Of a stretch of DNA of 15,291 nt, positions 1 through 15,291 are shown piece after piece (positions within the stretch are counted from its first letter, which is position 1; every line of letters starts with the position of its first letter). The DNA comes from Nostoc sp. CHAB 5834 (GTDB taxonomy: Bacteria; Cyanobacteriota; Cyanobacteriia; Cyanobacteriales; Nostocaceae). The position numbers were made by a program, and so were the translations under genes. Location of the stretch: assembly GCA_020829485.1 (NCBI GenBank), contig JAIVFU010000137.1, positions 1 to 15,291 of the forward strand. The letters run 5' to 3'. The notes beneath the pieces were generated by a model. It was not told the DNA's origin. It ran no database searches and saw only the letters and a program-made list of their open reading frames with translations.

Positions 1-140
1 TTATTCGTTTGGCATCTGGGAAATGTCTTTGTGGGCGGTGGCTAGGTAACTTTACTATCACGGAGGAATGTCTGCTGGTAGGTGTTTTTCAGTTTACTTG
101 CAAACAACACCAATTAGATAGCTAGGGACCAGATTCGCTT

Positions 141-2153: not shown

Positions 2154-2650
2154 CTAATGAAGTCTAGGCAGTTTACACGCTTATCTGCAAAAGATGAGGG
2201 GCAATTACCTTCGGATAGCTTTGCTTCATGCACGCTTGGCAGATAGAGAATATTGTTATCCCGCTTCAATCGAGTACACTTTGAACAAAGACTGTTGTTC
2301 AGCGTAGAATCTTCATGGCAAGGTGGTTATATTATGTCAACAGAAGATTTTTCTTCTCAATAAGCTCAAAAAAGTCGCATTAATAGCTGCTGATTGACAC
2401 AGCTTTAAAGGTTGAAATCACACTAGAATTATGCCGTTGGTTTTTATACTCAATAACCAGCTTGCACAAAGGCCATAGTGCTTTTCTACGGAACTGTTTG
2501 ATTGAGCAAGTGCTGAGTGAATATCTCTTGGACGGTGTATATTTCTTTTTGTGTACAATTCCACGCTGGGCAATCTGTGTCGCTAGGTCAATCATTACTT
2601 GCAGTCAACATCTGTGTTGATAGCAATCCTTGTTAGAGAAATCAGAAAAA
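2154..2650. other. Intergenic region without a convincing gene
   Basis: About 500 bases separate the WD40 gene from the partition cassette. A 37-codon frame (ATG 2194 to TAG 2307, plus) looks protein-like (LRIALLHARLADREYCYPAS) but has no ribosome binding site and I do not recognise it; it may be a gene remnant. A 71-codon minus frame (2595-2380) has no recognisable motif. A small perfect hairpin, AGAAGA/TCTTCT, lies at 2342-2357 without a T-tract. I see no RNA gene and no insertion-sequence end. Confidence 0.5.
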
Positions 2651-2703
2651 TGATATAACATTATCTCAAAATTCTTTGCACAAACTGATATAACGTTATC
2701 TCA
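2651..2703 (+). promoter_or_regulatory. Two direct repeats with palindromic core before parA (operator or parS-like)
   Basis: TGATATAACATTATCTCA (2651-2668) and TGATATAACGTTATCTCA (2686-2703) differ at one base and are 35 bp apart start to start. The second contains the perfect palindrome ATAACGTTAT. They end 44 bp before the preferred parA start. Autorepression of par operons through repeats in this position is common for type I systems; that this applies here, and whether ParA, ParB or another protein binds, is inference. Confidence 0.6.
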
Positions 2704-2747
2704 TGACTGGGAGTCGGAAATATAGTAATCAAGAAAGAGAAAAAATT

Positions 2748-3551
2748 ATGCCTGCCAATTTGACCCTTTCTATTGAGACAAACGCTGGAGGAGTAGCGAA
2801 AAGTACTATTTCATACAATCTTGCGTATGAATTGGGTGTTCGTGGCTATTCAGTGGCACTGTTAGACATCGATCCTAACGAATCATTGACATTATTTTGC
2901 GGATTAGGAGAATTTAAAACTCAGGGAACAATGGCTAATGTTTACCATCCAGACTTCAATGGCAACTGGCCTTTAGTTACAGCTTGGCAAGGTAAGATTG
3001 ACAAAATTCAAGTTTGTAAAGGCGGAAAAGAATTACACGAAACAATTCGGGAAGTTTCAAAGGATCTGCGTGGAGCTTATACTCTTGCAGATCGGTTGAG
3101 TGATTACCCCTTATCTCATGATTTTGTAATTATCGATTGTCCTGCAACATTGGAGCCTTTACCACTGACTGCTCTTGCAGCTTCTAGCCACGTGTTAATT
3201 CCCATTCAACCTGAATACAAGGCTTCTCAAAGTGCTGCGGCGATGATTGAGTGGTACTATTTCAACTGCAAGCGGCTGAGATTGAAACCGACTCCGAAAA
3301 TATTAGGTATAGTTCCTACTCGTTGGAAAAGTGATTGGGGAGCGCATAGAAGTATTGTTGAGGAACTTCCCCTAATCTGTAAGAATTTGGGAATTCAGTA
3401 TTTTAGCCCAATTCGAGAATCAGCTGATATTCTTAATGCTTCTGGTAGAGGGCTACCTCTGGGAATTTACAGACCAGGTAAAGAGGCAAGAGGAGATTTT
3501 CTGCCAATTGTTGATGCACTAGTTCAAGAACTTAAGCTAATAAGAGGTTGA
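2748..3551 (+). CDS. parA: ParA-type partition ATPase
   Basis: A 267-residue MinD/ParA-family ATPase that would move or position plasmid copies on the nucleoid together with ParB. Visible motifs from the chosen start are the P-loop AGGVAKST (13-20), Walker A' LLDIDPN (38-44) and Walker B VIIDCPA (127-133). In the usual deviant P-loop KGGxGK(S/T), the first lysine is the signature residue. Here it is alanine (A13), and the glycine before the ATP-binding lysine K18 is also alanine. The frame is open from ATG 2703, but that codon overlaps the upstream repeat. ATG 2748 follows purine-rich AAGAAAGAG and begins directly with the first beta strand, so it is preferred. parB follows after three bases. 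The length fits small plasmid ParAs without an N-terminal helix-turn-helix. Confidence 0.9.
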   Translation: MPANLTLSIETNAGGVAKSTISYNLAYELGVRGYSVALLDIDPNESLTLFCGLGEFKTQGTMANVYHPDFNGNWPLVTAWQGKIDKIQVCKGGKELHETIREVSKDLRGAYTLADRLSDYPLSHDFVIIDCPATLEPLPLTALAASSHVLIPIQPEYKASQSAAAMIEWYYFNCKRLRLKPTPKILGIVPTRWKSDWGAHRSIVEELPLICKNLGIQYFSPIRESADILNASGRGLPLGIYRPGKEARGDFLPIVDALVQELKLIRG

Positions 3552-3554
3552 TCG

Positions 3555-4706
3555 ATGACAAAATTAAACAAACCGAGTGTACTTGGAATGTTTGCTTCTG
3601 CTGCTGATTCACAACAGATATTTGAGCTTGAAGAACGAGTAGAAGATTTACAAGCAGAGATTACAAGATTAAAAGATGAACAAGCACAGGGAAAGCTTGC
3701 TGAAGAAGAACGTACAGTTCTCAATCAAACTATTGAAGACCTACGAGAACATTTGAAAGCATCTGGAATTTTTAAGATTCACTATAGTGAAATAAAACCC
3801 AATCCGAAACAAGCAAGGCAAACATTTACTTCGGATAGTATTCGGAGTATGGCTGTTTCAATTAGAGAGGAAGGGCAACAACAGCCGATTATCTTACTAC
3901 CGGGAAATCTCATTTTTGATGGAGAACGGAGATGGAGATCAGTTGCAGAAGAGTTACAGCCAGAAATTGAAACGCTTGATGCAGTGATGCTTCAGAAAGT
4001 TCTTTCTGAAGAGGAATTACATGCACGCACTTTATTAACTAGTCTTCACCGAGAAAGCTTGAATGAGCTAGATTTAGCCGAAGGTTTGATTCAACAGGCT
4101 AAGTTAGCTTTGGAATTTGAACAGGAAGAAGTAGTTAGAGCACTTAGGAGAGCAATAGCTAGATTAAACGCAAAAAAACTTTTGCCCCAATTAACTGAAT
4201 TGGTTATTTTAACTAGAAAAGAGCAGTCAGAAGGCATTAAAGAATTTAATTTAGACGAAATAGAACAAAGTATTCTTCTGTTGTTACTACGTTTTCAACA
4301 AAATCCAGCATCAGTAGATGCAAATGTCTTTCCTTGCTTACGGCTTTCAGAAGACTTAAAAACTGCGATTAGACAATCAGGACTTGGTGCAAACCATGCC
4401 CGGTCACTCCAAAAACTAAATTCTAAAAATTTAAAAGTTGAAGAAACTAAAGCTCTTAAAATCCGACAAGATGCTACATCACAAGTTTTGCAAGAAAGGC
4501 TAACAGTCGCTCAAACTCGTTTTCTAGTTGCCCAAACTATTGCTGAACATGCTCCTGAAACAAAACCTAAACCAAGTCACCAAATCAGTTCTCTAATTCG
4601 AGATGTCTCAGCAACTAAGATCGAAGATATTCAGCAAGAGCAACTGAGAGATTTATTGGCTGTATTAGAAGCTAAGGTAAAAGAGATTCGGAAAAAGTTG
4701 GACTAA
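3555..4706 (+). CDS. parB: ParB-type partition protein with N-terminal coiled coil
   Basis: A 383-residue ParB/Srx-fold protein, the DNA-binding partner of the ParA encoded just upstream. Residues 21-67 are heptad-rich and charged (coiled coil). The ParB N-domain follows with PNPKQAR (82-88), a box I-like region around 105-113 and GERRWRS (123-129), the arginine-rich nucleotide-binding motif of ParB CTPases. LTSLHRES (161-168) occupies the place of the usual EN.QR..L segment. SGLGANHARSL (275-285) resembles the ParB helix-turn-helix segment. The C-terminus is charged and helical. An AAGAGG Shine-Dalgarno (3542-3547) sits inside the end of parA, so the two genes form one operon with tight coupling. 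The coiled coil ahead of the ParB domain differs from chromosomal ParB and may mediate oligomerisation (inference). Confidence 0.9.
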   Translation: MTKLNKPSVLGMFASAADSQQIFELEERVEDLQAEITRLKDEQAQGKLAEEERTVLNQTIEDLREHLKASGIFKIHYSEIKPNPKQARQTFTSDSIRSMAVSIREEGQQQPIILLPGNLIFDGERRWRSVAEELQPEIETLDAVMLQKVLSEEELHARTLLTSLHRESLNELDLAEGLIQQAKLALEFEQEEVVRALRRAIARLNAKKLLPQLTELVILTRKEQSEGIKEFNLDEIEQSILLLLLRFQQNPASVDANVFPCLRLSEDLKTAIRQSGLGANHARSLQKLNSKNLKVEETKALKIRQDATSQVLQERLTVAQTRFLVAQTIAEHAPETKPKPSHQISSLIRDVSATKIEDIQQEQLRDLLAVLEAKVKEIRKKLD

Positions 4707-4734
4707 TACTATCTCGTCCGACTTAGTTCACTGA

Positions 4735-5073
4735 ACCGGAGATGTCCATGAAATCTATCGAGTGCCATCTAAACTACCCAAACGGCTTTCGCCTGAATCC
4801 CGCAGAGTCAAACCAGAATTATCAGCCGAACGGTTTCAGCATGTGAGATTTCTAGACTGCGACAAAGCAGTGAGCCGAATTATATTTGAGTACTGACACT
4901 GCCAAGAGGGGATACTTTGTGAGTTTACGGGTGAGCCTGTAGTTGGAGAATATAACGGGCGACCTTCAATCATCCAAGTTAAAGTTCAATGCCCCAACTC
5001 TGAGCAAACTGCTATTAGAATTAGTACGGAAGAAGTGCTTTCTACAATAGTGATTCCTTTTCCTTGGACATAA
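4735..5073 (+). pseudogene. Unrecognised broken gene, two open blocks in one frame separated by a TGA
   Basis: After a TGA at 4732, one frame runs 53 codons to a TGA at 4894-4896. It then continues in the same frame for 58 codons to TAA at 5071-5073. Both halves read like real protein: IYRVPSKLPKRLSPESRR and VRFLDCDKAVSRIIFEY before the stop, then EGILCEFTGEPVVGEYNGRP and a C-terminal IVIPFPWT after it. A single TGG-to-TGA change would explain the break. No ATG exists in the frame; GTG 4762 is the only early alternative start. I do not recognise the family. The basic first half could bind nucleic acid (speculation). It lies just after parB and abuts another pseudogene, which supports decay rather than chance. 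Confidence 0.5.
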
Positions 5074-5080
5074 ATAGTTT

Positions 5081-5534
5081 TCAAGAAACCAAATAATTTT
5101 TAATCTGGTCTTGCTCACGTCGTAAAGCTTTCATTCCTTGTCCATGAGCAGAGCGTACCTTGGAATGACTAAAATTGAATTTTTGTGCAATCTGTTTTAC
5201 AGTTAGCTTGCCCTGTCCCTCCAGTCCAAACTGTAACGTTAAGACTTGGACGTTGATTTGGCTTAAAGTCATCTGACAAATTCTCCAAATCTGACCAGTT
5301 GACCAAGCTTTTGGATTTGGGTTAACTGTGCTTCTGTTTTATTTACCTCGGCAGCTAGTTCAGCCCTAGTTGGGGAACGCTCTAGTCGTTGCACTTGAGA
5401 ATCGTTTTGCTTATCAAGTTTTGCATTGACCTTACAAGTCTTGTGTAGACAATCTTTTCCTCTGGCAATAGCCTTGGAAAGCGACCAATTTCTCGTAGAT
5501 AAATTCCATCGGTATCAGATATAGGGCTAGACAT
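5081..5534 (-). pseudogene. Decayed sigma-70 family factor (SigB/SigC-like), regions 2 and 3 lost
   Basis: Three minus-strand frames join into the ends of a cyanobacterial group 2/3 sigma factor. Frame A begins at ATG 5534 with SDTDGIYLREIGRFPRLLPE, a clear region 1.2, and stops at 5384-5382. Frame B (about 5424-5269) holds AKLDKQ and RSPTRAELAAEVNKTEAQLT, matching the helical segment between regions 1.2 and 2 (or region 3). Frame C (5272-5081, 63 codons) holds VLTLQFGLEGQGKLTVKQIA and the region 4 recognition helix around FSHSKVRSAHGQGMKALRRE, then a natural-looking C-terminus. Regions 2.1-2.4 and most of region 3 are absent, so the remnant has about 150 codons against roughly 320 in the family. 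It cannot make a working sigma factor. Frame C alone could still give a small region-4-like DNA-binding peptide, with no ribosome binding site in support. Plasmid-borne sigB-type genes are known in Nostoc. Confidence 0.85.
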
Positions 5535-6090
5535 CTTGCGGGAAGCTATTTAATAACAAAGACATTGACAGGAGAGTATAAATCAAACAGTCAACCATTT
5601 TAGAGGGTGTAGGGAACCAACGTTTTGAAACGCGGGATTGAAGCAAGGAAGCTTTGTATTTCGCGCTATGCGTCTCGAAATAAATATTTTTTTAAGTGGG
5701 CTTTAGATCCACAACTAAAGTTTTTTATTCCTTCTTCTCTATTTTTCTTGTAAGTTAATTTCTACTGCGTTGATAGATAAAGATTTCAAAAATTGCTTAT
5801 GGAGGTTATATGGGTGCTATATGTACCCATGAATAGATTAGACTTCGACGAAAATTTGACACCTATATGGGGTTATTTAGGTGTCAAGTGGGGTATAAAA
5901 TGTCGTTTAAGTAAACGTATCCCACTTAGCCCCCAAAAGGTTATGATAAGCTCTTGAGGTTAGAGAAGGAAGGGGCAGAGTTCTGGGGAAAGACTCATAG
6001 CAAGTTATTCTTCTCTCCCCTGCTTTCCTGCTCCCCTAGATAATCTGAACATATAACTTTCAAAAATCAAAACGTATTGACTTGATCCCT
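5535..6090. other. Non-coding region rich in inverted repeats, upstream of the actin-like gene
   Basis: About 550 bases hold no gene. From left to right: an inverted repeat TATTTCG/CGAAATA (5657-5682); an AT-rich stretch (about 5680-5800); ATGGGT/ACCCAT (5810-5830); two overlapping larger hairpins (5856-5927, listed separately); a purine-rich run (5963-5991); and a pyrimidine-rich run with three degenerate 8-mers, TCCCCTGC, TTTCCTGC and TCCCCTAG (6016-6039), of the kind seen as short tandem repeats in Nostoc genomes. It lies directly before a plasmid segregation operon, so a centromere (parC-like), a promoter region or a replication origin are all possible; the sequence alone does not choose. 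Confidence 0.5.
5856..5927. repeat. Two overlapping hairpins, candidate centromere or origin structure
   Basis: Hairpin 1 has perfect 10-bp arms, TTGACACCTA (5856-5865) and TAGGTGTCAA (5878-5887), with a 12-nt loop. Hairpin 2 shares two bases with it. Its outer arms AAGTGGGGTA (5886-5895) and TATCCCACTT (5918-5927) pair over 10 bp with one G-U. Inside it sits a further perfect hairpin, CGTTTA/TAAACG (5904-5917), with a 2-nt loop. Neither has a T-tract, so they are not ordinary terminators. Confidence 0.65.
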
Positions 6091-7029
6091 ATGTCAAACA
6101 TTCACGCCTTGCAAAAAATTTTTCCTGCTGGCTTTGATAACGGTTACGGAAGTCTCAAACTTTTAGTCGAAGGGTTTGAAGTTGTTCGTGTCCCCAGCTA
6201 TATTTCCACAGCCGACATGGAAGATGTACCAGGGAGGGTAGTTTTTAACGGTAGTGCCTACACAGTTGGAGAATCAGCTTTCCGTACAGGTTATCATTTT
6301 GACCGGAACACAGACAATAATGAAAATAAAGTCAACAACGCATTATTGACTTTATTCGGTGCATTGGCACATCTGCCACACCGTAAGGCTTGGCACTTAA
6401 AATTAGTTGTCAGCTTACATGATGTTGGTCTGGCTGAAGAATTACAAAAAGTACTCAATGGAGAATATCAGCCAATACTTGCTGGCAAGCAATCAGACGT
6501 AAAAGTAGAAGTGGTTAAAGTTGTACTAGAGGGAATGGGTGCGTTGTTTGGGCATCCACTACCAAAAAAATTAACCATTTTAGACTTTGGCAATGGTACG
6601 ACCCTGTATTCTCGTTACAACCGGGGTCAGCGCGAAGTTCACACTGCCTACCCTATAGGTGTAGAAGTTCTCATCGATGATATCTCCCAAAAAATGAAAC
6701 ATCTAAATGGCGGAAAAATTGGGGATGCCTCCAAAATTCGATTTTGTCTAGAGATGGGGCATACCAAGTACAACCGCGATATCGATATCAAAGATATATA
6801 CAGTGCAAGTTTAAAAGATTGGTATGAAAAATACTTAAAAAAAGTGGTGAATCTGACACTTGATGCCAAGCACCAAGGGGATGAAATCTGGGCGATAGGT
6901 GGAGGCTGTCTCTTACCTGGATTTAAAAAGTTGTTAGAAAAGAATGGCTTCAAAATCCTGGACAATCCAGTGGAAACTAATGTCTTTGGGCTTCTAGAAA
7001 TGGCAAAAACCATTACGAGCAAGAATTAA
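6091..7029 (+). CDS. Actin-like plasmid segregation protein (ParM/StbA type)
   Basis: A 312-residue actin-fold ATPase, likely the filament-forming motor of a type II partition system. Nucleotide-binding signatures are in order: phosphate-1 motif DNGYG (16-20), EGMGALFG (147-154) near the connecting segment, phosphate-2 LDFGNGTT (164-171) and adenosine motif AIGGGCLLPG (268-277). The length is typical of ParM and Alp proteins and short of MreB-type actins. The frame can be extended to TTG 6082, but ATG 6091 gives a more natural N-terminus; no strong Shine-Dalgarno is seen for either. The small gene 35 bp downstream is likely its DNA-binding adaptor. The inverted-repeat block just upstream is the natural place for the centromere. 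The alternative is an actin-like protein with another role, such as the archaeal Ta0583-like group. Confidence 0.85.
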   Translation: MSNIHALQKIFPAGFDNGYGSLKLLVEGFEVVRVPSYISTADMEDVPGRVVFNGSAYTVGESAFRTGYHFDRNTDNNENKVNNALLTLFGALAHLPHRKAWHLKLVVSLHDVGLAEELQKVLNGEYQPILAGKQSDVKVEVVKVVLEGMGALFGHPLPKKLTILDFGNGTTLYSRYNRGQREVHTAYPIGVEVLIDDISQKMKHLNGGKIGDASKIRFCLEMGHTKYNRDIDIKDIYSASLKDWYEKYLKKVVNLTLDAKHQGDEIWAIGGGCLLPGFKKLLEKNGFKILDNPVETNVFGLLEMAKTITSKN

Positions 7030-7064
7030 CCAAACACATCTGGAAAGTGAAGTTATAACAAACA

Positions 7065-7355
7065 ATGATAGATAAACAAGACTTAGCTCCGGTAAAAATT
7101 CGGCTCAAAGAAAACTACCGAGAACGCATATTTGCAGAATCCCAACAACTAGGTAAAAGTTACCTGGAGACGCTTTATTTTATTATTGATTGCTATTTTG
7201 TTTTCATAAAGGCTGGATTAGCCACACAAGAAGTAGCTTTCACGCCGCTTACTACTAACGAAAACAGACTCCAGCAGCCAATTCCCCAGCCATCTACAGA
7301 CCAAAAACTAGAAGAGCCTGATAGCGAAACATTCAGTCTTGATTTTGAATTATAA
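7065..7355 (+). CDS. Small ParR-like adaptor (ribbon-helix-helix candidate)
   Basis: A 96-residue protein directly after the actin-like gene. Residues 8-48 have the layout of a ribbon-helix-helix DNA-binding domain: a short strand (PVKIRL), a helix (NYRERIFAESQQLG), then SYLETLYFIIDCYFVFI. The second half (55-96) is proline-, glutamine- and acid-rich and probably unstructured, ending in SLDFEL. In type II systems the ParR adaptor binds the centromere through an N-terminal RHH and the filament through a flexible C-terminal tail, which this architecture fits. The call rests mainly on position and layout, since no residue signature is decisive. A weak inverted repeat AGTTGG/CCAACT follows the stop at 7367-7390. 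Confidence 0.55.
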   Translation: MIDKQDLAPVKIRLKENYRERIFAESQQLGKSYLETLYFIIDCYFVFIKAGLATQEVAFTPLTTNENRLQQPIPQPSTDQKLEEPDSETFSLDFEL

Positions 7356-7520
7356 CCGTCAGATGAAGTTGGCAACGGTAATTCCCAACTCGTGGGGTAA
7401 TTATGTCAAAAAACTTTTAAATTTAGCTTTTGTGTAAGTATTTCAGTATTTATGTACTATATAAGATGAGTTAATGTCAGCGATTCTACCAAACAGTAGA
7501 TTTTTATTCTGGATTTCTAT

Positions 7521-7571
7521 AAAAAAATAATGCCAGTACTAACAAGTAACCCTGTATGTACTAGCATTATT
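7521..7571 (-). terminator. Intrinsic terminator of the SSB operon
   Basis: On the minus strand, AATAATGCTAGTAC (7571-7558) pairs over all 14 positions (one G-U) with GTACTGGCATTATT (7539-7526) across an 18-nt loop. The stem runs into seven T residues (7527-7521). It lies 14 bp after the stop codon of the SSB-like gene. Confidence 0.85.
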
Positions 7572-7584
7572 CAGTTAATTGGGT

Positions 7585-8004
7585 CTAGAACGGAGGTTCT
7601 TGATCTAGGTCTTCATCTGTCGAAGTAACGTTATCTTCGAGTAGTTCTTTGGCAAAATCGGGAGTTTCAGGCGAGTGAGGGGTTTTACTAACCTGGGTGA
7701 GTTCGTTGATGGGTTGTGCTGACATAAAGTTTCTGATTACGAATGTGGCAATCTTTTCTTTGTAATCACCCCTGTTATCAACTAGCAAATCGAGATATCC
7801 TTCTGCTGTGCCGTGTACGCCTTCCCCCTGTTCGTTAATAACGACGGCGGGTGCGCCCTTGGAACGGAATGGCATCTCGTCAGCAACTACTCCTTCCTTG
7901 GAACGGTAGTAGAATTCGGCGATCCCAAAGGCAATCAAGGAACCTTCTTTGTCGTGGGTAGTGTTCACTGACTTAAGATTGATAGTTGCAGTATTATGAA
8001 TCAT
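7585..8004 (-). CDS. Divergent small protein with SSB-type acidic C-terminal tip
   Basis: A 139-residue protein, second gene after ssb on the same strand, and likely a single-stranded-DNA-binding or replication accessory protein. Residues 1-95 look like a compact beta-rich fold (alternating strands such as TATINLKSV, LIAFGIAEFYY and IATFVIRNF) compatible with an OB fold, but they are not clearly homologous to bacterial SSB. Residues 96-130 form a polar linker. The last residues, DEDLDQEPPF, match the acidic, Phe-terminated tip by which SSB recruits partners (E. coli ends DDDIPF). The neighbouring SSB lacks this tip, so the pair may share one job (inference). The alternative is an unrelated protein with a mimic tail. 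Confidence 0.6.
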   Translation of the reverse strand: MIHNTATINLKSVNTTHDKEGSLIAFGIAEFYYRSKEGVVADEMPFRSKGAPAVVINEQGEGVHGTAEGYLDLLVDNRGDYKEKIATFVIRNFMSAQPINELTQVSKTPHSPETPDFAKELLEDNVTSTDEDLDQEPPF

Positions 8005-8037
8005 GTTCGTTTTATTTGTAGATTGATTAGATGGTTT

Positions 8038-8067
8038 ATCGCCTACGATTTATAGTACATAGGCGAT
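8038..8067 (-). promoter_or_regulatory. Perfect hairpin between the two SSB-type genes
   Basis: ATCGCCTA (8038-8045) and TAGGCGAT (8060-8067) form an 8-bp perfect stem with a 14-nt loop. The stem lies 34 bp before the start of the downstream gene and 10 bp after the ssb stop. The T-run (8067-8071) lies on the plus-strand side, so for the minus-strand operon it is not a standard terminator. It could be an mRNA processing or stability element that sets different expression of the two genes (inference). Confidence 0.5.
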
Positions 8068-8077
8068 TTTTAATTTC

Positions 8078-8461
8078 CTAGAAATTTGCGTTAGCTACAG
8101 TCTGTGTTTCGTTTGGTGCAGAAGTGGATGTAGATTCTTCCTTACGGGGTGAACCTAACAATTCAATAGCGTTGATTGTAATTACGGGTTTTTGCCGCAT
8201 AGTCCCAGAATTTTTATCTGCCCAACGATCAAATCCAAACTCGCCAGTAATTGCAATTTGGGTTCCTTTACGAACGTAATTTCCAATCACTTCTGCTTGA
8301 TTTCCCCAAGCGACTAAATCAAACCAAAGAGCTTGTTCACTTCTGTAAGGTGGTCTTACTGCAATAGATATTGAAGCCTTAACTGCGCCAGACTCGAAAT
8401 ATTTGAGTTCCGGTTCTTGTCCGCATCTGCCAACCAGCATGACTTTGTTGATATAGTTCAT
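8078..8461 (-). CDS. ssb: Single-stranded DNA-binding protein without acidic tip
   Basis: A 127-residue SSB. The OB fold spans residues 1-105 with hallmark segments NKVMLVGRCGQEPELKYFES (5-24), WFDLVAWGNQAEVIGNYVRK (46-65) and GTQIAITGEF (66-75). It would coat single-stranded DNA during replication or repair of the element. The tail after residue 105 is short and ends TVANANF, with no DDDIPF-like acidic tip for recruiting partner proteins. Tail-less SSBs are known in Nostoc, so this need not be a truncation. The last Phe is kept, but the acidic residues are missing. It is the first gene of a minus-strand pair, with the SSB-like gene 73 bp downstream. Confidence 0.93.
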   Translation of the reverse strand: MNYINKVMLVGRCGQEPELKYFESGAVKASISIAVRPPYRSEQALWFDLVAWGNQAEVIGNYVRKGTQIAITGEFGFDRWADKNSGTMRQKPVITINAIELLGSPRKEESTSTSAPNETQTVANANF

Positions 8462-8471
8462 AACACGAGGA

Positions 8472-8500
8472 TTTATATATTTCTCTTATTGCTGCGTCAG
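8472..8500 (-). promoter_or_regulatory. Candidate sigma-70-type promoter for ssb
   Basis: On the minus strand, CTGACG (8500-8495) and TATAAA (8477-8472) are separated by 17 bp. The -10 element ends 10 bp before the ATG, so a transcript from it would be almost leaderless. This is odd and lowers confidence. Confidence 0.3.
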
Positions 8501-8545
8501 CATTAGTTCTTTCAGGATTTATTATTTTGACGAGTTATTTTATTT

Positions 8546-8614
8546 AAACCACATTCTTTTTTATTCATACTTATGAGTTATTTTTTGTCCTTGTTTATCG
8601 TAAAATTGTGGTTT
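8546..8614. repeat. Long-loop inverted repeat in the divergent intergenic region
   Basis: AAACCACA (8546-8553) and TGTGGTTT (8607-8614) are perfect 8-bp arms 53 bp apart, between the divergently transcribed ssb and the unknown gene at 8699. They could be paired operator half-sites; chance is possible at this length. Confidence 0.3.
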
Positions 8615-8698
8615 TTACTAGGGAACGACTAGTTACCCTGTGCTATGGTGGTATCGCAATTAATCTGGTCTGTATCTAAAAATTATAAGTAATGACTT

Positions 8699-9877
8699 AT
8701 GCCTGAATATCTTCTCCTTAAGCGAGTAAGTATTTGTAAGCTGATGCTTTTGGCTTTGATGTGGATACAGTCGGATGAGGATAGCCAAAACCAGCTGACT
8801 TCTGACTACTCATCTTCTTTGCGGGTAGAAAATCTTACCTGGTTAGGAGAAACATCTGTTGGAGAAGATGTAGAGCATTTTTGCGATCTTTCCAATACAA
8901 CTAGAATAGGCGTTTGGGGAGAAATCCTAGAACTGAAATTAGTAGATTTAATTGCTGATTTACCGACTTGTTTGCACGATGCGTCATGGTTTGCCTTACT
9001 GGCAATTCCCATGATGCTAGTGGATAAGGAACTAGACCGAGTATGCGTGCATCCACAAGATGAGTATTTTGCCCGGACTATCGCGCTTGAAAGTTTAGCA
9101 GATTTAGGTGATTCTTACTTAGGCAAAGGCCACCCTTATTTAGATTTTCCTCTATCGTTAGAAGATGCTAAGTCGTTACTACCAGTTAATAGAAAGCAAG
9201 AGCTAGAAATCGAGCTAGAGAAATTTATTGTTGATACTTATGAAGACGATTTTGATGATGAATCTCCAGATATTAATGAGTTTTCACCCATCTATTTACA
9301 AGAGATTTTAAAAGAGTTTTTTATTGAATCTGATTGGCAGGGTGATATCAATCAAGAGGCTGTCGTCCAACTCCAACAGAAGTACGGTTCGCAGTATTCA
9401 GAAGGTGCGTTTTCTCCTGAAACTGAGGGACACGAACGTTGGGGGAAAACGCTTGTTTTTCTCAAACAGGTTATAGGTCTGGATTCCAGTTTTATCGAAA
9501 GCCAGAGCGATTTATTCCTTGATGATGAATCTCAGGTGGCTGATTTACCTGATTACTTCTGTATCGAGTCTCATTTAGAACGTTGGCAAGACCGAACAGT
9601 TGTTTTATCACGGTTGGTTCATACTTTGGTTTATTTTTTGTTAGTAGGGCAAAATTATCATCCCAGTCATCTGCAAGATTTGATGGCTATTCCAGCTTCC
9701 TCGCGGGCCACATCTAGCTTACAAGCTTGTTTAGGTGTAGCTGCTTACAGAAGTGGTTTTTATATGGCTGCTTATAATATTCCTGAATCAGAAGTTGGGC
9801 GCAACTGGCTTTTAGAAAAAGCTTTCCCTAGCCTGTGTGATTTTTATCAAACAGGTCGGTTGAGTGGGAAGCAATAA
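8699..9877 (+). CDS. Unrecognised acidic protein, 392 residues
   Basis: I do not recognise this protein. The first 24 residues include a hydrophobic stretch (ICKLMLLALMWI, 12-23), but no cleavage site or lipobox follows, so it is likely the first buried helix rather than a signal. The body is mostly helical and strongly acidic, with YEDDFDDESPDINEF at 181-195. Later segments, such as DRTVVLSRLVHTLVYFLLVG and the Ala-rich run LQACLGVAAYRSGFYMAAYN, look like packed helices of a soluble domain. Cysteines are scattered with no metal-binding spacing. It is the first gene of a plus-strand pair with the lipoprotein 41 bp downstream. No clear Shine-Dalgarno precedes ATG 8699. Codon use and AT content look like those of its neighbours. 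Confidence 0.75.
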   Translation: MPEYLLLKRVSICKLMLLALMWIQSDEDSQNQLTSDYSSSLRVENLTWLGETSVGEDVEHFCDLSNTTRIGVWGEILELKLVDLIADLPTCLHDASWFALLAIPMMLVDKELDRVCVHPQDEYFARTIALESLADLGDSYLGKGHPYLDFPLSLEDAKSLLPVNRKQELEIELEKFIVDTYEDDFDDESPDINEFSPIYLQEILKEFFIESDWQGDINQEAVVQLQQKYGSQYSEGAFSPETEGHERWGKTLVFLKQVIGLDSSFIESQSDLFLDDESQVADLPDYFCIESHLERWQDRTVVLSRLVHTLVYFLLVGQNYHPSHLQDLMAIPASSRATSSLQACLGVAAYRSGFYMAAYNIPESEVGRNWLLEKAFPSLCDFYQTGRLSGKQ

Positions 9878-9918
9878 TTAATATTTTATTGTTAGTTGAC
9901 AAATACAAATTTATTTTT

Positions 9919-10617
9919 ATGAAAAACTACTTATTTATAGGATTGTTATTCTTACTGATTGGATGTTCATCTCCAGAAAAAGAAGATAAAGTCTCGGCTA
10001 TAGAATCGAATTATTCACCTACGCCATCATTATCCCCAGCTAATGTTAATAATGCTACGCCATCGCTAAATCCAGAAGTGTTGCCTGATTTATCAAATAA
10101 AGAGAAGCTTGGAGAAGTTAATGCAGAGAACGACTTAATTGACTTGTTTTATTTTGATGGTAATGGTGTGAAAGTGAGTTTAACTATAGCAGCTGATAAA
10201 GGTTGTTTTGTCTACGTGCGGCGCAGTACTCCAAACCGAATTGGTGAAGTTGAAATTGAGTCACTACAGCGTGAGAAGTTAGGTCTGTGGCGTTCGTATA
10301 ACACTCAGCGACTTCTAACTCAAGCTGCTGGCAATAAACTAAAGATTTATTCATCAAGTGAGGAACTTTCTTCTACTTATGAAAATCCTGCAATATCGCA
10401 AGAAATGCTTGTGGCAGTAAAGGAATTGAAAGAGCGTGAAAAATCGTTTAAATTACTTTTACGTCAGGACTTGAGGGCGAGTGATTCAGCAAGACGAATT
10501 TATATCAATCAGTGTCAGAAATTAGGTAATTTTTATTATAAAGAAGAACTACCTCCTCTCACAGAGAAGGAGAGGAAGGACTTTGAAAAGAGTGTTGAAA
10601 AAAGTACTGAAAATTAG
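9919..10617 (+). CDS. Predicted lipoprotein, unknown function
   Basis: A 232-residue protein beginning MKNYLFIGLLFLLIGCSS, a lipoprotein signal with lipobox LIGC and the lipidated cysteine at 16. An upstream TTG (9889) would add ten residues before the signal and is rejected. Residues 17-65 are a Ser/Pro/Asn-rich linker with two copies of a TPSL motif. The mature domain (about 75-215) contains VKVSLTIAADKGCFVYVRRS and ends in a charged helical tail with EKERKDFEKSVEKSTEN. No family is recognised. It is probably anchored in the plasma or outer membrane, facing the periplasm. Its stop codon (10615-10617) directly abuts the stop of the convergent gene, with no terminator between them. Confidence 0.75.
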   Translation: MKNYLFIGLLFLLIGCSSPEKEDKVSAIESNYSPTPSLSPANVNNATPSLNPEVLPDLSNKEKLGEVNAENDLIDLFYFDGNGVKVSLTIAADKGCFVYVRRSTPNRIGEVEIESLQREKLGLWRSYNTQRLLTQAAGNKLKIYSSSEELSSTYENPAISQEMLVAVKELKEREKSFKLLLRQDLRASDSARRIYINQCQKLGNFYYKEELPPLTEKERKDFEKSVEKSTEN

Positions 10618-11292
10618 TTATGAGAACAGTGATAATTGCTCCATCTTAGTATTACTTTCAGTTGAAGTTGCTGTAACAGTGTGTTTGTTCTTATTTGACG
10701 ACTTTTTACCCCATCCTTCTTTCGCCGCGTGTTTGACTACACGGGAGCGGATATCAGTAGCCAGGGTTTCATAATTAGAGCGGATTTTGTCATACGAAAC
10801 CGGAGTTGTACCAATCTTCTCCCAGAGGTTTTCGTAGTTGAAATTCTTGAAAGGTCTGTGCCTGACGAGGGCATCATAACTTGCCCAGAGGTAAACATCT
10901 GTCCATTCGGATGATAGCGGCACTTCAAAAGCAATTGGCATCATCAGTGCAACAACTTCGCTGCTAGAAGCGAGTTTACCTACTTCTCCCTTGTCTATCT
11001 CTTCTAGCACTGCATCTAATCTATCGACTGCGATCGCTTTTCCTACCCAGGATGGAATTGACTGTTGCCAGCCGTTCTGCTGAGTTACAATTGGCCCAGC
11101 TATGTATTGAACAATTTCACGACTTGCTCCTGCTAGATCAAGTAGACTGGCTGTTACAACTTTGTTAATCCCTTGGCTGGTTAGTAGCTGAAGCATCTTT
11201 CTAGTGCTAGGAGTAAGAATTTCGCTAGCTTTTTCGCTTTTGCTGTTACGGATGGTTTCTTCGACATTGAATAAGCTTTGCTGCTGGTTCAT
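10618..11292 (-). CDS. Unknown protein with beta-clamp-binding motifs at both ends
   Basis: A 224-residue protein of unknown family. Its last residues are EQLSLFS: QLSLF at 219-223 is the canonical beta-sliding-clamp-binding pentapeptide (QL(S/D)LF). The N-terminus, MNQQQSLFNVEE, carries a second match, QQSLF at 4-8. The body (26-195) is predominantly helical, with SWVGKAIAVDRLDAVLEEID at 81-100 and a Trp/Tyr-rich region at 130-160 (WTDVYLWASYDALV). A Lys/Ser/Thr-rich flexible linker (192-216) would present the C-terminal motif. It is the last gene of the replication block, downstream of the delta and delta' genes. I infer a clamp-associated replication or repair factor, possibly bridging two clamp protomers. 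No enzymatic motif is visible. Confidence 0.8.
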   Translation of the reverse strand: MNQQQSLFNVEETIRNSKSEKASEILTPSTRKMLQLLTSQGINKVVTASLLDLAGASREIVQYIAGPIVTQQNGWQQSIPSWVGKAIAVDRLDAVLEEIDKGEVGKLASSSEVVALMMPIAFEVPLSSEWTDVYLWASYDALVRHRPFKNFNYENLWEKIGTTPVSYDKIRSNYETLATDIRSRVVKHAAKEGWGKKSSNKNKHTVTATSTESNTKMEQLSLFS

Positions 11293-11313
11293 ATTCTTTA
11301 TGTGTAAATAAAT

Positions 11314-11345
11314 ACTGCCAGCTAGAAGTACTTCTAACTGGCAGT
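11314..11345. repeat. Strong hairpin between the delta' gene and the 224-residue gene
   Basis: Arms ACTGCCAG (11314-11321) and CTGGCAGT (11338-11345) enclose the perfect palindrome TAGAAGTACTTCTA (11323-11336), giving about 15 paired bases with one mismatch. T5 follows on the plus strand (11348-11352). On the minus strand, which carries the genes, the stem is followed by the weaker ATTTATTTAC. It may act as a partial terminator or attenuator that lowers expression of the last gene, or as a terminator for antisense transcription. Confidence 0.6.
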
Positions 11346-11370
11346 GCTTTTTGATAATGGGTGTGTTTTG

Positions 11371-12246
11371 CTATGGCAGAAGTAGGTTATCCCAAACGCT
11401 TCTAGGAGTAACGTGATGCAGCAATTGCTTCTTTGCTTGAGTAAATTTAGCTAGCAATTGAGTGTTTTTTAATTTCTGCCACCAGTTGTGTTGCAGGTAG
11501 GTAAGCAGCCATAATTGTGTCTCGTGATTCCAGCTTGAGATGGAGTTACTCAAACTGAGTGCGTTGAGAATATCGTCAGGAGGCACTTCCAGTTGAGTTA
11601 TGATTTCTTTTGAGATGGAAGCTAACATTGTGATGTTGGCGATCGCTTGACCAGGACTACCTGAACTGATAGCTAGTATTTTTTCTGTTACCTCGATTTG
11701 TTGGTCTTTGAGTACAGAAATAACCTCCTCATCAGTTAACCTTTGGAAAGGTATGATTTGACACCTACTCTTGATAGTGGGTAATAGCTTTTGAGGATAG
11801 GACGAGATCAGGATAAATGTTCCAGTTTTCGGTTCTTCCAGCGTCTTGAGAAGTTTGTTGGCGGCGCTAGGGTTGAGCATATCTGCTTCGTGGATAATCA
11901 CCACCTTTTGCTTGGCCTTGACTGCACTAGTTGATAGAAATTCAATGACCTCGCGCACCTGTTCTACTCGAATAGCAGGTATACCTTTCTGCTGGGGGGT
12001 GTTTTCGGGATGGGTTGGTTTGATTTGTAAGATGTCTAGATGGTTATTTTCTCCTGCCTTCGCGGAGCGACTCCCTCTTGGGAGTATCGCATTTGCGATC
12101 GCCAGAGCAGTTTTTCCTTTCCCCACTCCCTCAACTTGACTGCTAAATAGGTATGCAGGAGCAATTTTATTCTGTTCGATTGCTTCAGTCAGGAGAAGTT
12201 TGGCGGTATGCTGTCCGGTGATTTGTGTAAATGGGTTGTTTTTCAT
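11371..12246 (-). CDS. holB: DNA polymerase III delta' subunit (clamp loader)
   Basis: A 291-residue clamp-loader subunit of the AAA+ fold; delta' helps open the beta clamp and place it on primed DNA. The start chosen is ATG 12246, whose ATGA overlaps the stop of the delta gene, a classic coupling. The open frame reaches TTG 12255. From ATG: ITGQHTAKLLLTEAIE, P-loop-like VEGVGKGKT (38-46, an irregular Walker A as expected for delta'), KVVIIHEADML (114-124, Walker B-like with His for the usual Asp) and the SRC arginine-finger motif in TIKSRCQIIPF (157-167). The cysteines of the delta' zinc module of E. coli are absent. In that place is LPRGSRSAKAGE, encoded by an inserted palindromic repeat. 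Chromosomes carry their own holB, so this is an element-borne second copy. Confidence 0.88.
   Translation of the reverse strand: MKNNPFTQITGQHTAKLLLTEAIEQNKIAPAYLFSSQVEGVGKGKTALAIANAILPRGSRSAKAGENNHLDILQIKPTHPENTPQQKGIPAIRVEQVREVIEFLSTSAVKAKQKVVIIHEADMLNPSAANKLLKTLEEPKTGTFILISSYPQKLLPTIKSRCQIIPFQRLTDEEVISVLKDQQIEVTEKILAISSGSPGQAIANITMLASISKEIITQLEVPPDDILNALSLSNSISSWNHETQLWLLTYLQHNWWQKLKNTQLLAKFTQAKKQLLHHVTPRSVWDNLLLP
12052..12090 (-). repeat. Interspersed palindromic repeat inserted inside the delta' gene
   Basis: The stretch contains ACTCCC-TCTT-GGGAGT (12070-12085, perfect 6-bp stem) inside GCGA...ATCGC, next to CTTCGCGGAG. It is GC-rich compared with its surroundings and touches a GCGATCGC octamer at 12095-12102. 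It adds the in-frame peptide LPRGSRSAKAGE. Palindromic repeats of this style, inserted in frame in genes, are familiar in heterocyst-forming cyanobacteria (recollection). Confidence 0.6.
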
Positions 12247-13202
12247 ATCGTACAAATTTCAGCAATTCGACTGGTTAGGTTGTCAATTCCGCTTTTGAGT
12301 TCGGCTTCGAGTTGTACAAGTAAAGTAAGGCTGTTTTTAAGCTTTTGAACGCCTACAAACTTGACTTCATCTTTGAGGTAATACAATCTTTTGGGGTTTT
12401 TCAGTTCGGCTATTTCTGCAATCTTCGTATCAGATAATTTAGTTTCTACCCCAGCTTTGGTTATTAAGCAAGTGCGGAAAATAGAGGTAAGTGTTGCTAC
12501 TATTTTGAGCGGGTGTTCATTATTACTTAGTAGTTTTGATACCTGCACTATTGCTAAACTTGGATGGTTTCTTAACATAGCAATAGTAAGCTTTAGGTAG
12601 TCAGTATTCTGATTACCAACGAGCTGTTTTACTTCCTCAACAGAGATTATTTTTCCACTTGCATAAACAGCAATTTTAGCGAATTCGCTATTGGCTCGTG
12701 CAGTGTTATTGCCAATTGCTTCAGCTAGGTAATCAGTGACATCTGGCGTGAGTTTAACTTGATGGATGGCTGCATATTTTCCTATCAAGTTAACTATCCC
12801 CTTTTTATCCCAACTAGAGACAAGGGGAAACTCTTCTTGTTGGGCATATTTTAGGATAGTTTTTACTACTGTCCTGCGCGAATCTGGCTTTTTATTACCA
12901 GTAATTAGAAGAATGTTGCTTGACGGTATTCGGGAAAGGTGATTTTCAAGTTCTTGGTTATTATCTTCATTTGATAAACTTTCAATTAGAGAGTCGCTGT
13001 CTGTATGAATAATTTTGTTACCTTCTCCAAAGGGCAAAGTCATAACCTCGGTAAAGACTTTGGCAGCAATATTTTTCTCATTTCCAGATAGCTTAACGTA
13101 ATTGAAAGCTTTCCATTCCGCATGAACATTTTGATTCACTAAATAATCAATTCTTTGATTGAGTGAGTAGCTATCTTCGCCGTAGTATAGATATACAGTC
13201 AT
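12243..13202 (-). CDS. holA: DNA polymerase III delta subunit (clamp loader)
   Basis: A 319-residue delta subunit, the clamp-loader component that wrenches the beta ring open. The N-terminus MTVYLYYGEDSYSLNQRI and the body match cyanobacterial HolA. The beta-interaction site falls at TEVMTLPFGEGNKII (51-65), equivalent to QAMSLF of E. coli delta; the Gln is replaced. RIPSSNILLITGNKKPDSRR (91-110) is the conserved 'L...N.KPDSRR' segment. The C-terminal helical collar domain (about 205-319) is complete. The length is normal. It is the first gene of a two-gene operon with delta', overlapping it by 4 bp. A terminator of the preceding gene (13255-13282) lies 53 bp upstream, so its promoter must be in the short gap. 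Carriage of delta and delta' together on a mobile element is unusual. Confidence 0.88.
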   Translation of the reverse strand: MTVYLYYGEDSYSLNQRIDYLVNQNVHAEWKAFNYVKLSGNEKNIAAKVFTEVMTLPFGEGNKIIHTDSDSLIESLSNEDNNQELENHLSRIPSSNILLITGNKKPDSRRTVVKTILKYAQQEEFPLVSSWDKKGIVNLIGKYAAIHQVKLTPDVTDYLAEAIGNNTARANSEFAKIAVYASGKIISVEEVKQLVGNQNTDYLKLTIAMLRNHPSLAIVQVSKLLSNNEHPLKIVATLTSIFRTCLITKAGVETKLSDTKIAEIAELKNPKRLYYLKDEVKFVGVQKLKNSLTLLVQLEAELKSGIDNLTSRIAEICTI

Positions 13203-13254
13203 GATAGATTAGATAAACATTTATTTATCAGGCGTTAGTCGTAAGCGGTGGTTT

Positions 13255-13282
13255 AAAAAAAGAAGAGTTAGTGTTAACTCTT
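13255..13282 (-). terminator. Intrinsic terminator after the 260-residue gene
   Basis: On the minus strand, AAGAGTTA (13282-13275) and TAACTCTT (13270-13263) form a perfect 8-bp stem with a 4-nt loop, followed by C and seven T residues (13261-13255). It separates the 260-residue gene from the delta-delta' operon. Confidence 0.85.
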
Positions 13283-13346
13283 TCTATATCCTTAGTGTTT
13301 GTTATATAGCCGCTAGCAAAATATAGCGATCAGCAAATACTTACAC

Positions 13347-14129
13347 TTAATTTTGTATTGGCTGTACTGACTTATGATTTGAGACTTTCTCAACAGTATT
13401 TTCTACTGGTTGAATACCCAAATATTTCCGCCAATAATCCAATTGTTGGAGATACTCTACGACTCCACTAGAACCAGTTACCTCATATAGCGCAATAGCT
13501 GTTTCCCACTCCTTTAAGCTAGCTTTTTTCTTAGAAAGAATTTTGACTATAGCTCCTGGAAGTTTAGTCTCTTTACCAGTATCTAAATTTAGGTGTGATA
13601 CCCTTTCTAGTAATAGTTCTTGTTCCGATAAAGGAACACCACCATCTTCGATGTTTATAGTATGAAGTTGGGCACTAATTCCTGATAGAGGAAGAGTATG
13701 CTGAATTAATTTTTTAACTTTCTTGGTTTTAGTATTCCTCCTTTTTGGTTTAACGATAACTGGGTTGTTTGGGTCTGCAACTTCGTAACACTGGGGAAGT
13801 TCTAGAGAGAGTTGACCTGTTAAGTGCCATGATGCAGTTCGTTTTTCTGGCGGGGTGATGCGGTAAAAGAACTCTGCTGTTTTTCTCGCATCGCCAAATT
13901 TCCTTAGTTTGACCCGCATCTTGTAGCTAATAATTCCTTGAATGTAGGTTTTTGGGTCTAATATTATTCGGTTTGTATTTTCCCACCACTCAATTTCAAC
14001 AACGCGATCGCCATCTAATTCATAGATATTTCTAACTCTGGCATTAGGATGAGATGCAAGGAATGAGTTTACCCAAGCCCTTTGTTTTTTATTAAGCCTG
14101 GGCTTGCGATATGAGGATTTATTTTTCAT
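13347..14129 (-). CDS. Unknown basic protein in the replication block
   Basis: A 260-residue protein that I do not recognise. The N-terminus (1-16) is Lys/Arg-rich (KNKSSYRKPRLNKKQRAW). Residues 31-72 look like a small beta sheet (RVRNIYELDGDRVVEIEWWE). A lysine-rich stretch at 128-140 (PKRRNTKTKKVKK) suggests nucleic-acid contact. Two stretches resemble beta-clamp-binding hexapeptides: QLSLEL (106-111) and QHTLPL (143-148, compare QLSLPL in Hda); either may be chance. The C-terminal part (195-245) is helical, with LKEWETAIALYEVTGSSGVV. It lies between the polymerase and the clamp-loader genes, with its own terminator downstream, so it is a separate transcript from both. One GCGATCGC octamer is inside it (14004-14011). 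Confidence 0.75.
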   Translation of the reverse strand: MKNKSSYRKPRLNKKQRAWVNSFLASHPNARVRNIYELDGDRVVEIEWWENTNRIILDPKTYIQGIISYKMRVKLRKFGDARKTAEFFYRITPPEKRTASWHLTGQLSLELPQCYEVADPNNPVIVKPKRRNTKTKKVKKLIQHTLPLSGISAQLHTINIEDGGVPLSEQELLLERVSHLNLDTGKETKLPGAIVKILSKKKASLKEWETAIALYEVTGSSGVVEYLQQLDYWRKYLGIQPVENTVEKVSNHKSVQPIQN

Positions 14130-14347
14130 TAATTACCTTCCCACATTTAAGAATGATATTTCCACCAATTCATCCATCAATTAATCAACTCACTTAATTA
14201 GTTAATTAATGTCTGATACTGTGTTTGCTAATATAATTTTTGCTAATATATTTTTATTTGTTTGAATGCCTAAAAATACTTTAATGAAAGCCGATTTAAT
14301 TGTAGGTATTTGTTATTATTTACAAATTCTTGATAATTCATGAATTG
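14130..14347. promoter_or_regulatory. AT-rich intergenic region with palindrome and direct repeat
   Basis: This is the upstream region of the 260-residue gene. It has a near-perfect palindrome TTAATTA-GT-TAATTAA (14194-14209) and a direct repeat TTTGCTAATATA at 14224-14235 and 14239-14250, offset 15 bp. Either could be a regulator binding site. No clear -35/-10 pair can be singled out in such AT-rich sequence. Confidence 0.45.
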
Positions 14348-14398
14348 AAAAAAAGACTTGATATTTATTATTTTCAGTGCTTAGGCTAAATATCAAGT
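14348..14398 (-). terminator. Intrinsic terminator after the family B polymerase
   Basis: On the minus strand, ACTTGATATTTA (14398-14387) pairs perfectly over 12 bp with TAAATATCAAGT (14367-14356). The stem is followed by C and seven T residues (14354-14348). It lies eight bases after the polymerase stop codon. Confidence 0.9.
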
Positions 14399-14406
14399 TT
14401 ATTCAT

Positions 14407-15216
14407 CTAGAAGAGAGATAACTGATGTCTATTACCTTCTAGTATTTCAGGAGCGGCTATTTTGAGGACTTCTTCTCGCCTTTTTTCAATAATGTCAAGA
14501 TAGTATTGACGTGAATAGCTCTCATTAGTGCTGGTATTAGTAATACCTCTGATTCCGTAATAGTAAATTACTACATCACCAGGCTTTCCTAATTTAAGAA
14601 GTTCTTTTTCACCAATACGAATTTTGCGAGTAATGCAGAGTTTTTCTCTCGGGTATTTTCCTGATAAAATCTGCGATTTTACTTCTCTGAAATATTCCTC
14701 TGCCGTGGATTGGTTTTGGATTAAGTAGGTTAGATATTCAACAGGGAATTCTTTCTCTAGTTTTGAGCGAGAACGGCTTCTCCAACTACCTTTGCGGATA
14801 ATCCAGTTATCTTTTAGCCATAACAGATAGTTCTTAGTTCCCCTTTGCGGAATAAACATTGCATTGGCAATAAACTCTAATTTGACGGTTATTCCTTTGG
14901 GTAATTCAGACTGAAGTGTGGCATACACTTTTTCTGGGTTGGGGTGAGTAAAGAACACCCCGTCAGTATCAACTTCTACAGGGATTGCACCAGCTTCATT
15001 GATTACCTCAATCATGAATTGTAGGATGCGCCGACCGTAAGCTGTTACTAAAGCGGCTGCTTCCATATCGTTGAAGGCGAGTTCCGATGTTCCGAAGAAC
15101 CCAAACTGAGAATTAGCTAAAACTTTGGTGGATTCTCTTTTTTCCTTGGCAACAATGTCTCCGGTGCAGCAATTCTCATTTTGAAATAAATAGAGTATTA
15201 ACCCCGATTTTGGAAT
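14407..15216 (-). CDS. Family B DNA polymerase, C-terminal part; 5' end broken or interrupted
   Basis: An open frame of 269 codons encodes the palm-thumb part of a family B polymerase. Motif B is seen as RESTKVLANSQFGFFG (15135-15088), with the NS.(Y/F)G core. Motif C is VEVDTDGVFF, with both catalytic Asp and Gly for the usual Ser. KNYLLW and KGSWRSRSRSKLEKE correspond to the KK(N/R)Y and following region, and KPGDVVIYYYG to the thumb. The last residues are HQLSLF, a beta-clamp-binding motif, as in E. coli Pol II. The exonuclease domain and motif A (DxxSLYP) are missing. Going upstream the frame meets TGA at 15219-15217, and no ATG, GTG or TTG precedes motif B; the first ATG (15066) lies after it. 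The gene is therefore truncated, frameshifted, or split by an insertion extending beyond the window. Polymerases of family B are reported in Nostoc cyanophages and plasmids, which fits a mobile element. Confidence 0.85.
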   Translation of the reverse strand: MPKSGLILYLFQNENCCTGDIVAKEKRESTKVLANSQFGFFGTSELAFNDMEAAALVTAYGRRILQFMIEVINEAGAIPVEVDTDGVFFTHPNPEKVYATLQSELPKGITVKLEFIANAMFIPQRGTKNYLLWLKDNWIIRKGSWRSRSRSKLEKEFPVEYLTYLIQNQSTAEEYFREVKSQILSGKYPREKLCITRKIRIGEKELLKLGKPGDVVIYYYGIRGITNTSTNESYSRQYYLDIIEKRREEVLKIAAPEILEGNRHQLSLF

Positions 15217-15291
15217 TCAAAATGTAGTACAAAATAACTAGTTTTTCAGCTAAAGGCAATCGCTAAAAAACAATTGGGTCGAGGAATTAAG

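Follow-up and report, generated by a model that had tools for sequence, protein, structure and literature searches.

A likely plasmid-owned sliding clamp, clamp loader, and family B DNA polymerase on large plasmids of Nostocales cyanobacteria

Introduction

Which sliding clamp would be served by a gene set that encodes two clamp loader subunits and part of a family B DNA polymerase? The question is raised by contig JAIVFU010000137.1 of Nostoc sp. CHAB 5834 (assembly GCA_020829485.1), of which positions 1 to 15,291 (the whole stretch of DNA analyzed, hereafter the window) carry on the minus strand of 10618-15167, in order, q, holB, holA, u, and the 3' end of polB. The remaining window content, namely ParA, ParB, an actin-like protein, a single-stranded DNA-binding protein (SSB), and a WD40 protein, fits what is expected of a large plasmid. 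Plasmids are usually described as borrowing the replisome of their host and encoding at most an initiator, a primase, or an SSB. Here, comparison with relatives suggests that the plasmid brings a private copying apparatus rather than only borrowing that of the host. We consider it likely that the window is a piece of a large-plasmid family with its own beta clamp, a complete loader (a gamma-like DnaX with delta and delta'), and a 605-residue PolB, which we propose is tethered to that clamp; gene order, domains, conserved motifs, and purifying selection are the observed part of this reading.

Results and Discussion

The gene set and its interrupted polymerase

The features of the region are as follows.

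10618..11292, minus strand: q, a 224-residue protein with a motif-like segment near each terminus (residues 4-8, QQSLF; residues 219-223, QLSLF)
10624..10638, minus strand: C-terminal QLSLF of q, read from the sequence and kept in 34 of 37 locus-derived frames
11371..12255, minus strand: holB, clamp loader delta' (NF005638); the start used in relatives is the ATG at 12246
12243..13202, minus strand: holA, clamp loader delta (TIGR01128)
13347..14129, minus strand: u, a 260-residue protein with two conserved hexapeptide-like motifs, from alignment
13797..13814, minus strand: u motif 1, QLSLEL, residues 106-111
13686..13703, minus strand: u motif 2, QHTLPL, residues 143-148
14407..15167, minus strand: 3' part of polB, encoding the C-terminal 253 of 605 residues; motifs B (KVLANS) and C (VDTDG) are present
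14410..14424, minus strand: C-terminal QLSLF of PolB, from the sequence and its relatives
15168..15291, no strand assigned: end of an insertion sequence (IS) that cuts polB, from IS-end matches; the window stops inside the IS

The five genes are real, and the identities that the original prediction gave to the family B polymerase, delta, and delta' are upheld by profile scores above cutoff: 29.6 bits against PF00136 (cutoff, 23) for the polB fragment, 177.1 bits against TIGR01128 (cutoff, 80) for holA, and 335.7 bits against NF005638 (cutoff, 230) for holB. Neither q nor u matched any Pfam or NCBIfam model. Both the polymerase and q had been said to end in QLSLF; the polymerase does so exactly (...HQLSLF), but q carries one further residue (...EQLSLFS), leaving its motif one residue from the C terminus.

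That the polymerase is a family B fragment stood, and its truncation can now be explained. The window is about 95% identical to Nostoc C052 up to 15167 and has no match to it beyond, and the sequence past this point matches IS ends, which in plasmids of Calothrix PCC 7716 and Anabaena cylindrica show inverted repeats of 21 to 30 bp lying about 1.87 kb apart; the Calothrix copy of the IS contains or adjoins a transposase. The window polB thus retains motifs B and C without the exonuclease domain or motif A, and, interrupted in this way, the assembled copy cannot encode a complete PolB. The polB gene of a Trichormus variabilis plasmid is likewise cut by an IS. Intact relatives encode a compact PolB of 605 residues with a proofreading exonuclease domain, scoring 31.9 bits against PF00136 and 47.5 bits against PF03104 (gathering cutoff, 23 for each), with the polymerase motifs present. 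Escherichia coli Pol II, which is host encoded outside any clamp-loader operon, is also a family B enzyme that uses a C-terminal motif on a bacterial clamp, beta, loaded by a DnaX-type loader. The plasmid PolB shares the family and the C-terminal clamp-type motif with Pol II, but it scores only 43.7 bits against the E. coli-type equivalog NF004421, for which the cutoff is 570 bits.

One genome among the relatives (G001) holds an intact module on contig C30 (locus L080) and a second, partial copy on the 4.5-kb contig C117 (locus L100). Both are about 95 to 97% identical to the window, and the C117 copy is without the q stretch.

Clamp and DnaX genes of the relatives

No beta clamp or tau/gamma subunit is encoded in the window, as had been noted, but in relatives dnaN and dnaX lie directly past the window edge and are plasmid encoded. 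The close relatives are large Nostocales plasmids of about 215 to 300 kb, mostly typed as conjugative, in which the order is DUF5895, dnaN, dnaX, polB, u (260 residues), holA, holB, and q (224 residues). polB, dnaX, dnaN, and DUF5895 or a homologue of it were found on plasmids of Nostoc C052, N. linckia, Scytonema, Microchaete, Aulosira, Brasilonema, and T. variabilis. The order is kept in 11 annotated plasmid loci and in most of 54 genome loci, and distant plasmids of Chroococcidiopsis, A. cylindrica, Calothrix, and Gloeothece, whose PolBs are only 41 to 56% identical, retain dnaN, dnaX, polB, holA, and holB in that order. Co-occurrence of the genes in a fixed order, the check originally suggested, was therefore found, and with dnaN, dnaX, holA, holB, and polB together on plasmids of the relatives the idea of a plasmid replication module centered on the sliding clamp was borne out. 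What found no support is the proposal that the host loader is reprogrammed and PolB recruited to the host clamp: since dnaN and dnaX are plasmid encoded in the relatives, where the PolB motif tracks the plasmid clamp, a plasmid-owned clamp, loader, and polymerase replace it.

The relatives' beta clamp, outside the window, scores 253.2 bits against TIGR00663 (cutoff, 137.65) and has all three clamp domains (PF00712, PF02767, and PF02768), and their DnaX, also outside the window, scores 437.7 bits against TIGR02397 (cutoff, 250) over its N-terminal domain. DnaX falls short of the full-length model NF011510, matching only positions 5-399 of 640 with 488.7 bits against a cutoff of 593, and it is 429 to 453 residues long in seven close relatives. 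The C-terminal part of tau is what reaches the host polymerase. Judged from length and domain content, with an end near residue 430-450 where the cyanobacterial model runs to 640 residues, the plasmid DnaX probably lacks the corresponding part, and coupling of the loader to host DnaE is therefore improbable.

In many of these plasmids a gene for a ThiF (E1-like) protein lies near dnaN on the same strand (L001:35780-37928, L011:4795-7203, L010:228-1642, and others), and some of these genes adjoin genes named as Mov34/JAB and E2-like.

Some DnaN match was found in 58 of 59 genomes of relatives; identity between the plasmid DnaN and the near-universal DnaN of the relatives, taken as chromosomal, is about 40%. 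In a DnaN tree, 18 of 21 type I plasmid clamps, with two further clamps, group in a supported 20-member clade that excludes the 15 rows taken as chromosomal; as judged by this tree, the plasmid clamp is a lineage of its own. All 11 plasmid type I clamps measured carry the pocket signature T[DN][GS]H[RK]L, and all 11 have a C-terminal extension of 56 to 100 residues with a basic end (for example, L003:21016-22350), whereas four of five other (sister) plasmid clamps measured have N-terminal extensions instead.

The PolB tail and its loader neighbors

The comparison covered 69 distinct PolB loci, left after removal of three duplicates and drawn from plasmids, genome and viral contigs, and phages; a PolB was counted as intact at 560 residues or more and as having loader neighbors when at least two of dnaN, dnaX, holA, and holB lay in its flanks. 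There were 59 intact PolBs. All 49 with loader neighbors end in QL[ST][LI]F, but only 1 of the 10 without loader genes in the flanks read has the motif. The nine that lack it comprise one from Deinococcus, those of phages N-1, Dfl-JY23, and A-1(L) and of a Salinibacter phage, one from a viral contig, and three orphan cyanobacterial copies, one of which ends in QLTLL; the flanking sequence read for these nine had no match to other module genes. The exception with the motif (locus L049) comes from a genome in which plasmid-type dnaN and holA genes are present, two of each, and the genomes of the three orphans hold one dnaN and one holA each. Among ten fragmentary PolB loci the motif was kept in four and not in six. 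The conservation of QLSLF that had been predicted for orthologues thus holds for PolB beside loader genes as it does for the q frames, and the comparison suggests that a QLSLF-type PolB tail goes with the plasmid clamp and loader.

By motif comparison, PolB, q, and u all carry segments of the beta-clamp-binding QL[SD]LF or QxxLF type. In the portions of PMC12309361 available, both are given as known clamp-motif consensus sequences, and QLSLF and QLSLPL peptides are reported with measured binding to bacterial clamps. On plasmid pC052_E, 3 of 210 open reading frames (ORFs) have a strict QL[SDT]L[FL] within their C-terminal 10 residues, where shuffling predicts 0.02, and the QLSLF ends are therefore not due to chance.

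Other proteins with clamp-type motifs

Protein u, to which no motif had been assigned, has two. Q106 and Q143 are invariant in 47 of 47 sequences, motif 1 fits QLxLx[LIF] in 38 of the 47, and P147 of motif 2 is present in 43. In q, QL[ST]LF follows a variable linker, the three frames without it (L009, L028, and L043) being cut or shifted; Q219, L220, and L222 are invariant in 17 aligned sequences, and a structure model is disordered from residue 193. The third strict-motif ORF of pC052_E encodes a 164-residue protein beside a primase-polymerase (prim-pol). This neighbor ends in QL[ST]LF in all five readable copies, including that of A. cylindrica (QLTLF), a sixth, from Brasilonema, being cut by the locus edge. 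At L001:39302-40821, a Prim-Pol/PriCT_2 primase has a small neighbor ending in QLSLF. These data provide short-motif annotations for three protein families without an assigned function, u, q, and the prim-pol neighbor. A plasmid DNA methyltransferase starts with MQLSLLNL in three copies read (L001:33675-34727, L007:32082-33137, and L008:29357-30412), which may possibly be an N-terminal clamp motif.

Sister plasmids without PolB offer a second polymerase type. Among the matches listed, at least 13 of 23 holA plasmids without PolB have a family A polymerase (21 records stand outside the list), and no PolB plasmid has one. At one site, Qx[SP]L[LF] is present in 104 of the 109 family A polymerases examined (from 120 listed of 1854 matches, irrespective of whether the copies are plasmid borne).

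Distribution

PolB matches in PLSDB fall in 27 records, 18 cyanobacterial and 9 from Deinococcus. All 18 cyanobacterial plasmids also match dnaN, holA, and holB, and none of the 9 Deinococcus plasmids is in the full PLSDB holA list. The 11 annotated loci all have dnaX, and tblastn located it in the genome loci of three further records (L024, L053, and L065), so that it is accounted for in 14 of the 18. A holA match was found in 41 PLSDB plasmid records, 40 of them cyanobacterial, with a cyanobacterial query; delta diverges fast, which limits the reach of such a query. Of 291 genomes sampled from the order-level group, 15 have PolB relatives, which indicates a minority plasmid lineage.

A phage or phage-plasmid source, the other origin proposed for the module, received no support. 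Phage records gave 18 PolB matches and 136 dnaN matches, but holA gave one weak match among 50,697, and the PolB phage flanks read hold no loader genes. Two PolB relatives among viral contigs also have no loader genes in their flanks.

Proposed mechanism

We propose that DnaX, delta, and delta' would set the plasmid clamp on primers that the plasmid prim-pol has made, and that PolB, tethered through its C-terminal QLSLF, would copy the plasmid DNA. u, q, and the prim-pol neighbor may ride the same clamp by their own motifs, u and q as accessory factors. The module could act in vegetative (routine) replication, in making the second strand following conjugative transfer, or in both.

Several observations weigh against this reading. 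The gene order is not universal, dnaN following holB rather than preceding dnaX in Argonema and in one Phormidium locus; u and q were not detected in A. cylindrica, nor q in Chroococcidiopsis; and three type I clamps, those of Gloeothece, Argonema, and one Phormidium, sit on long branches away from the main clade. A plasmid dnaN alone is not rare, with 293 matching PLSDB records, and the hosts retain their own dnaN and holA. A QLSLF tail would be expected to fit the host clamp too, and a match to the loose QxxLF consensus, QPGLF, lies 38 residues before the end of the Deinococcus PolB, which has no loader. The association of motif with loader is also phylogenetically clustered: with many near-copy rows, and a minimum of two changes on the PolB tree, it represents one or two evolutionary events, not 49. 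Finally, a crude criterion of length, applied to 58 loci and prone to flag divergent genes and edge cases as well, scored polB as broken in seven (by the IS in T. variabilis; near a contig edge in L034) and u and q in four each; the other counts were 2 for holA, 2 for holB, 3 for dnaX, 4 for dnaN, and 5 for DUF5895. The breaks in polB at several loci and in the window argue against a simple claim that PolB is essential, and PolB may be dispensable for maintenance.

Alternative explanations

The strongest alternative, which we regard as possible but would not favor, is that the module serves special synthesis, either of the second strand after conjugative entry or in repair or lesion bypass like that of E. 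coli Pol II, and that the host DnaE replisome does the routine copying. Conjugative typing of 28 of the 41 holA plasmid records points this way, as do the plasmid-borne ssb and prim-pol, the IS-cut polB of the T. variabilis plasmids and the window, and the PLSDB gene table of the whole of pC052_E, which names no DnaE, DnaB, or DnaG, although such a table can be incomplete. A full private clamp and loader exceeds what a Pol II would need, however, and the Brasilonema plasmid is typed as nonmobilizable and that of Calothrix PCC 7716 as only mobilizable.

It is unlikely that delta and delta' reprogram the host loader while PolB binds host beta. Because QLSLF fits the general consensus, cross-binding to host beta is plausible, but dnaN and dnaX adjoin polB in the relatives, and the intact PolBs without loader genes in their flanks lack the motif in nine cases, the tenth coming from the genome with plasmid-type dnaN and holA.

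Very improbable, finally, is that these are host-derived passenger genes, functionless and decaying, as the IS and frameshift damage to polB, u, and q of several plasmids might suggest: the median dN/dS among 11 to 12 close plasmids is 0.10 to 0.38 across all eight genes, well under 1 and indicative of purifying selection, gene order is preserved down to about 41% PolB identity, and short motifs are preserved beside variable linkers.

Neighboring plasmid genes

Two further genes are linked to the module on the same plasmid family.

8078..8461, minus strand: ssb (PF00436), ending in ANANF without an acidic tip
7585..8004, minus strand: 139-residue protein adjoining ssb, with the acidic end DEDLDQEPPF

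The plasmid SSB has the ANANF end and no acidic tip in all seven copies read, and its 139-residue neighbor ends in EPPF in six of seven, and in SDIPF in Brasilonema, after an acidic run, which we take to resemble the C-terminal tip of SSB. Two partition-type systems, ParA/ParB and the actin-like protein, adjoin at 2703-7029. At 5162-5428, about 270 bp are missing from Nostoc C052 at the same site; this stretch overlaps a short ORF like sigma-70 region 4, and no repeats were detected in it.

Relation to known systems

PolB has already been described on pP742402, pCC7120beta, and A. variabilis plasmid C and in Nostoc phages N-1 and A-1(L), as excerpts of Chenard 2016 (PMC4916379) state; in the text searched, the terms clamp, dnaN, DnaX, and polymerase III do not occur. 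The three plasmids belong to the same plasmid lineage as the window. The plasmid PolB is homologous to the N-1/A-1(L) enzyme at 38 to 40% identity, but the three cyanophage enzymes read have no C-terminal motif and no loader genes in the flanks read. Nostoc-phage PolB has been assigned to bacterial group G3 in the portions available of Kazlauskas 2020 (PMC7544198), where section 17 and further passages do not treat the clamp partnership of this group. A glutamate two residues before DTDG, a motif C feature of G3, is present in some but not all aligned PolB rows, in a comparison made without a reference-group tree. T4-type phages are mobile elements with their own PolB, gp45 clamp, and gp44/62 loader (PMC7544198, excerpts), whereas the clamp and loader here are of the bacterial beta, DnaX, delta, and delta' type. 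The same clamp and loader idea is found with a family A polymerase in Planktothrix p1, pANSO36B, and pMIC7113.01, which have dnaN and holA; dnaX adjoins both genes in the first two, and the last two carry q homologues. In this group, the motif is internal to the family A polymerase and the clamps are extended N-terminally, not C-terminally. In sum, the presence of PolB on plasmids of this kind has been in print since 2016, and the openly licensed literature searched gave no report of the clamp-loader set or of the motif code.

Conclusions

A broader, more tentative picture, to which we give less credence than to the tethered plasmid PolB itself, is that large cyanobacterial plasmids carry a second, largely orthogonal replisome, with a private clamp bearing a basic tail, a gamma-delta-delta' loader, their own SSB and prim-pol, a replicase slot in which family B and family A enzymes can be swapped, and a shared QLxLF-type code, such that plasmid DNA synthesis would proceed without host DnaE. 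A lineage of plasmids that owns clamp, loader, and polymerase would be a bacterial counterpart of the self-sufficient replisome of T4, its parts being of bacterial type and DnaE being replaced by a family B or family A enzyme. It makes testable the idea that two clamp systems operate without cross talk in one cell, and it could be a starting point for orthogonal tools in plasmid replication.

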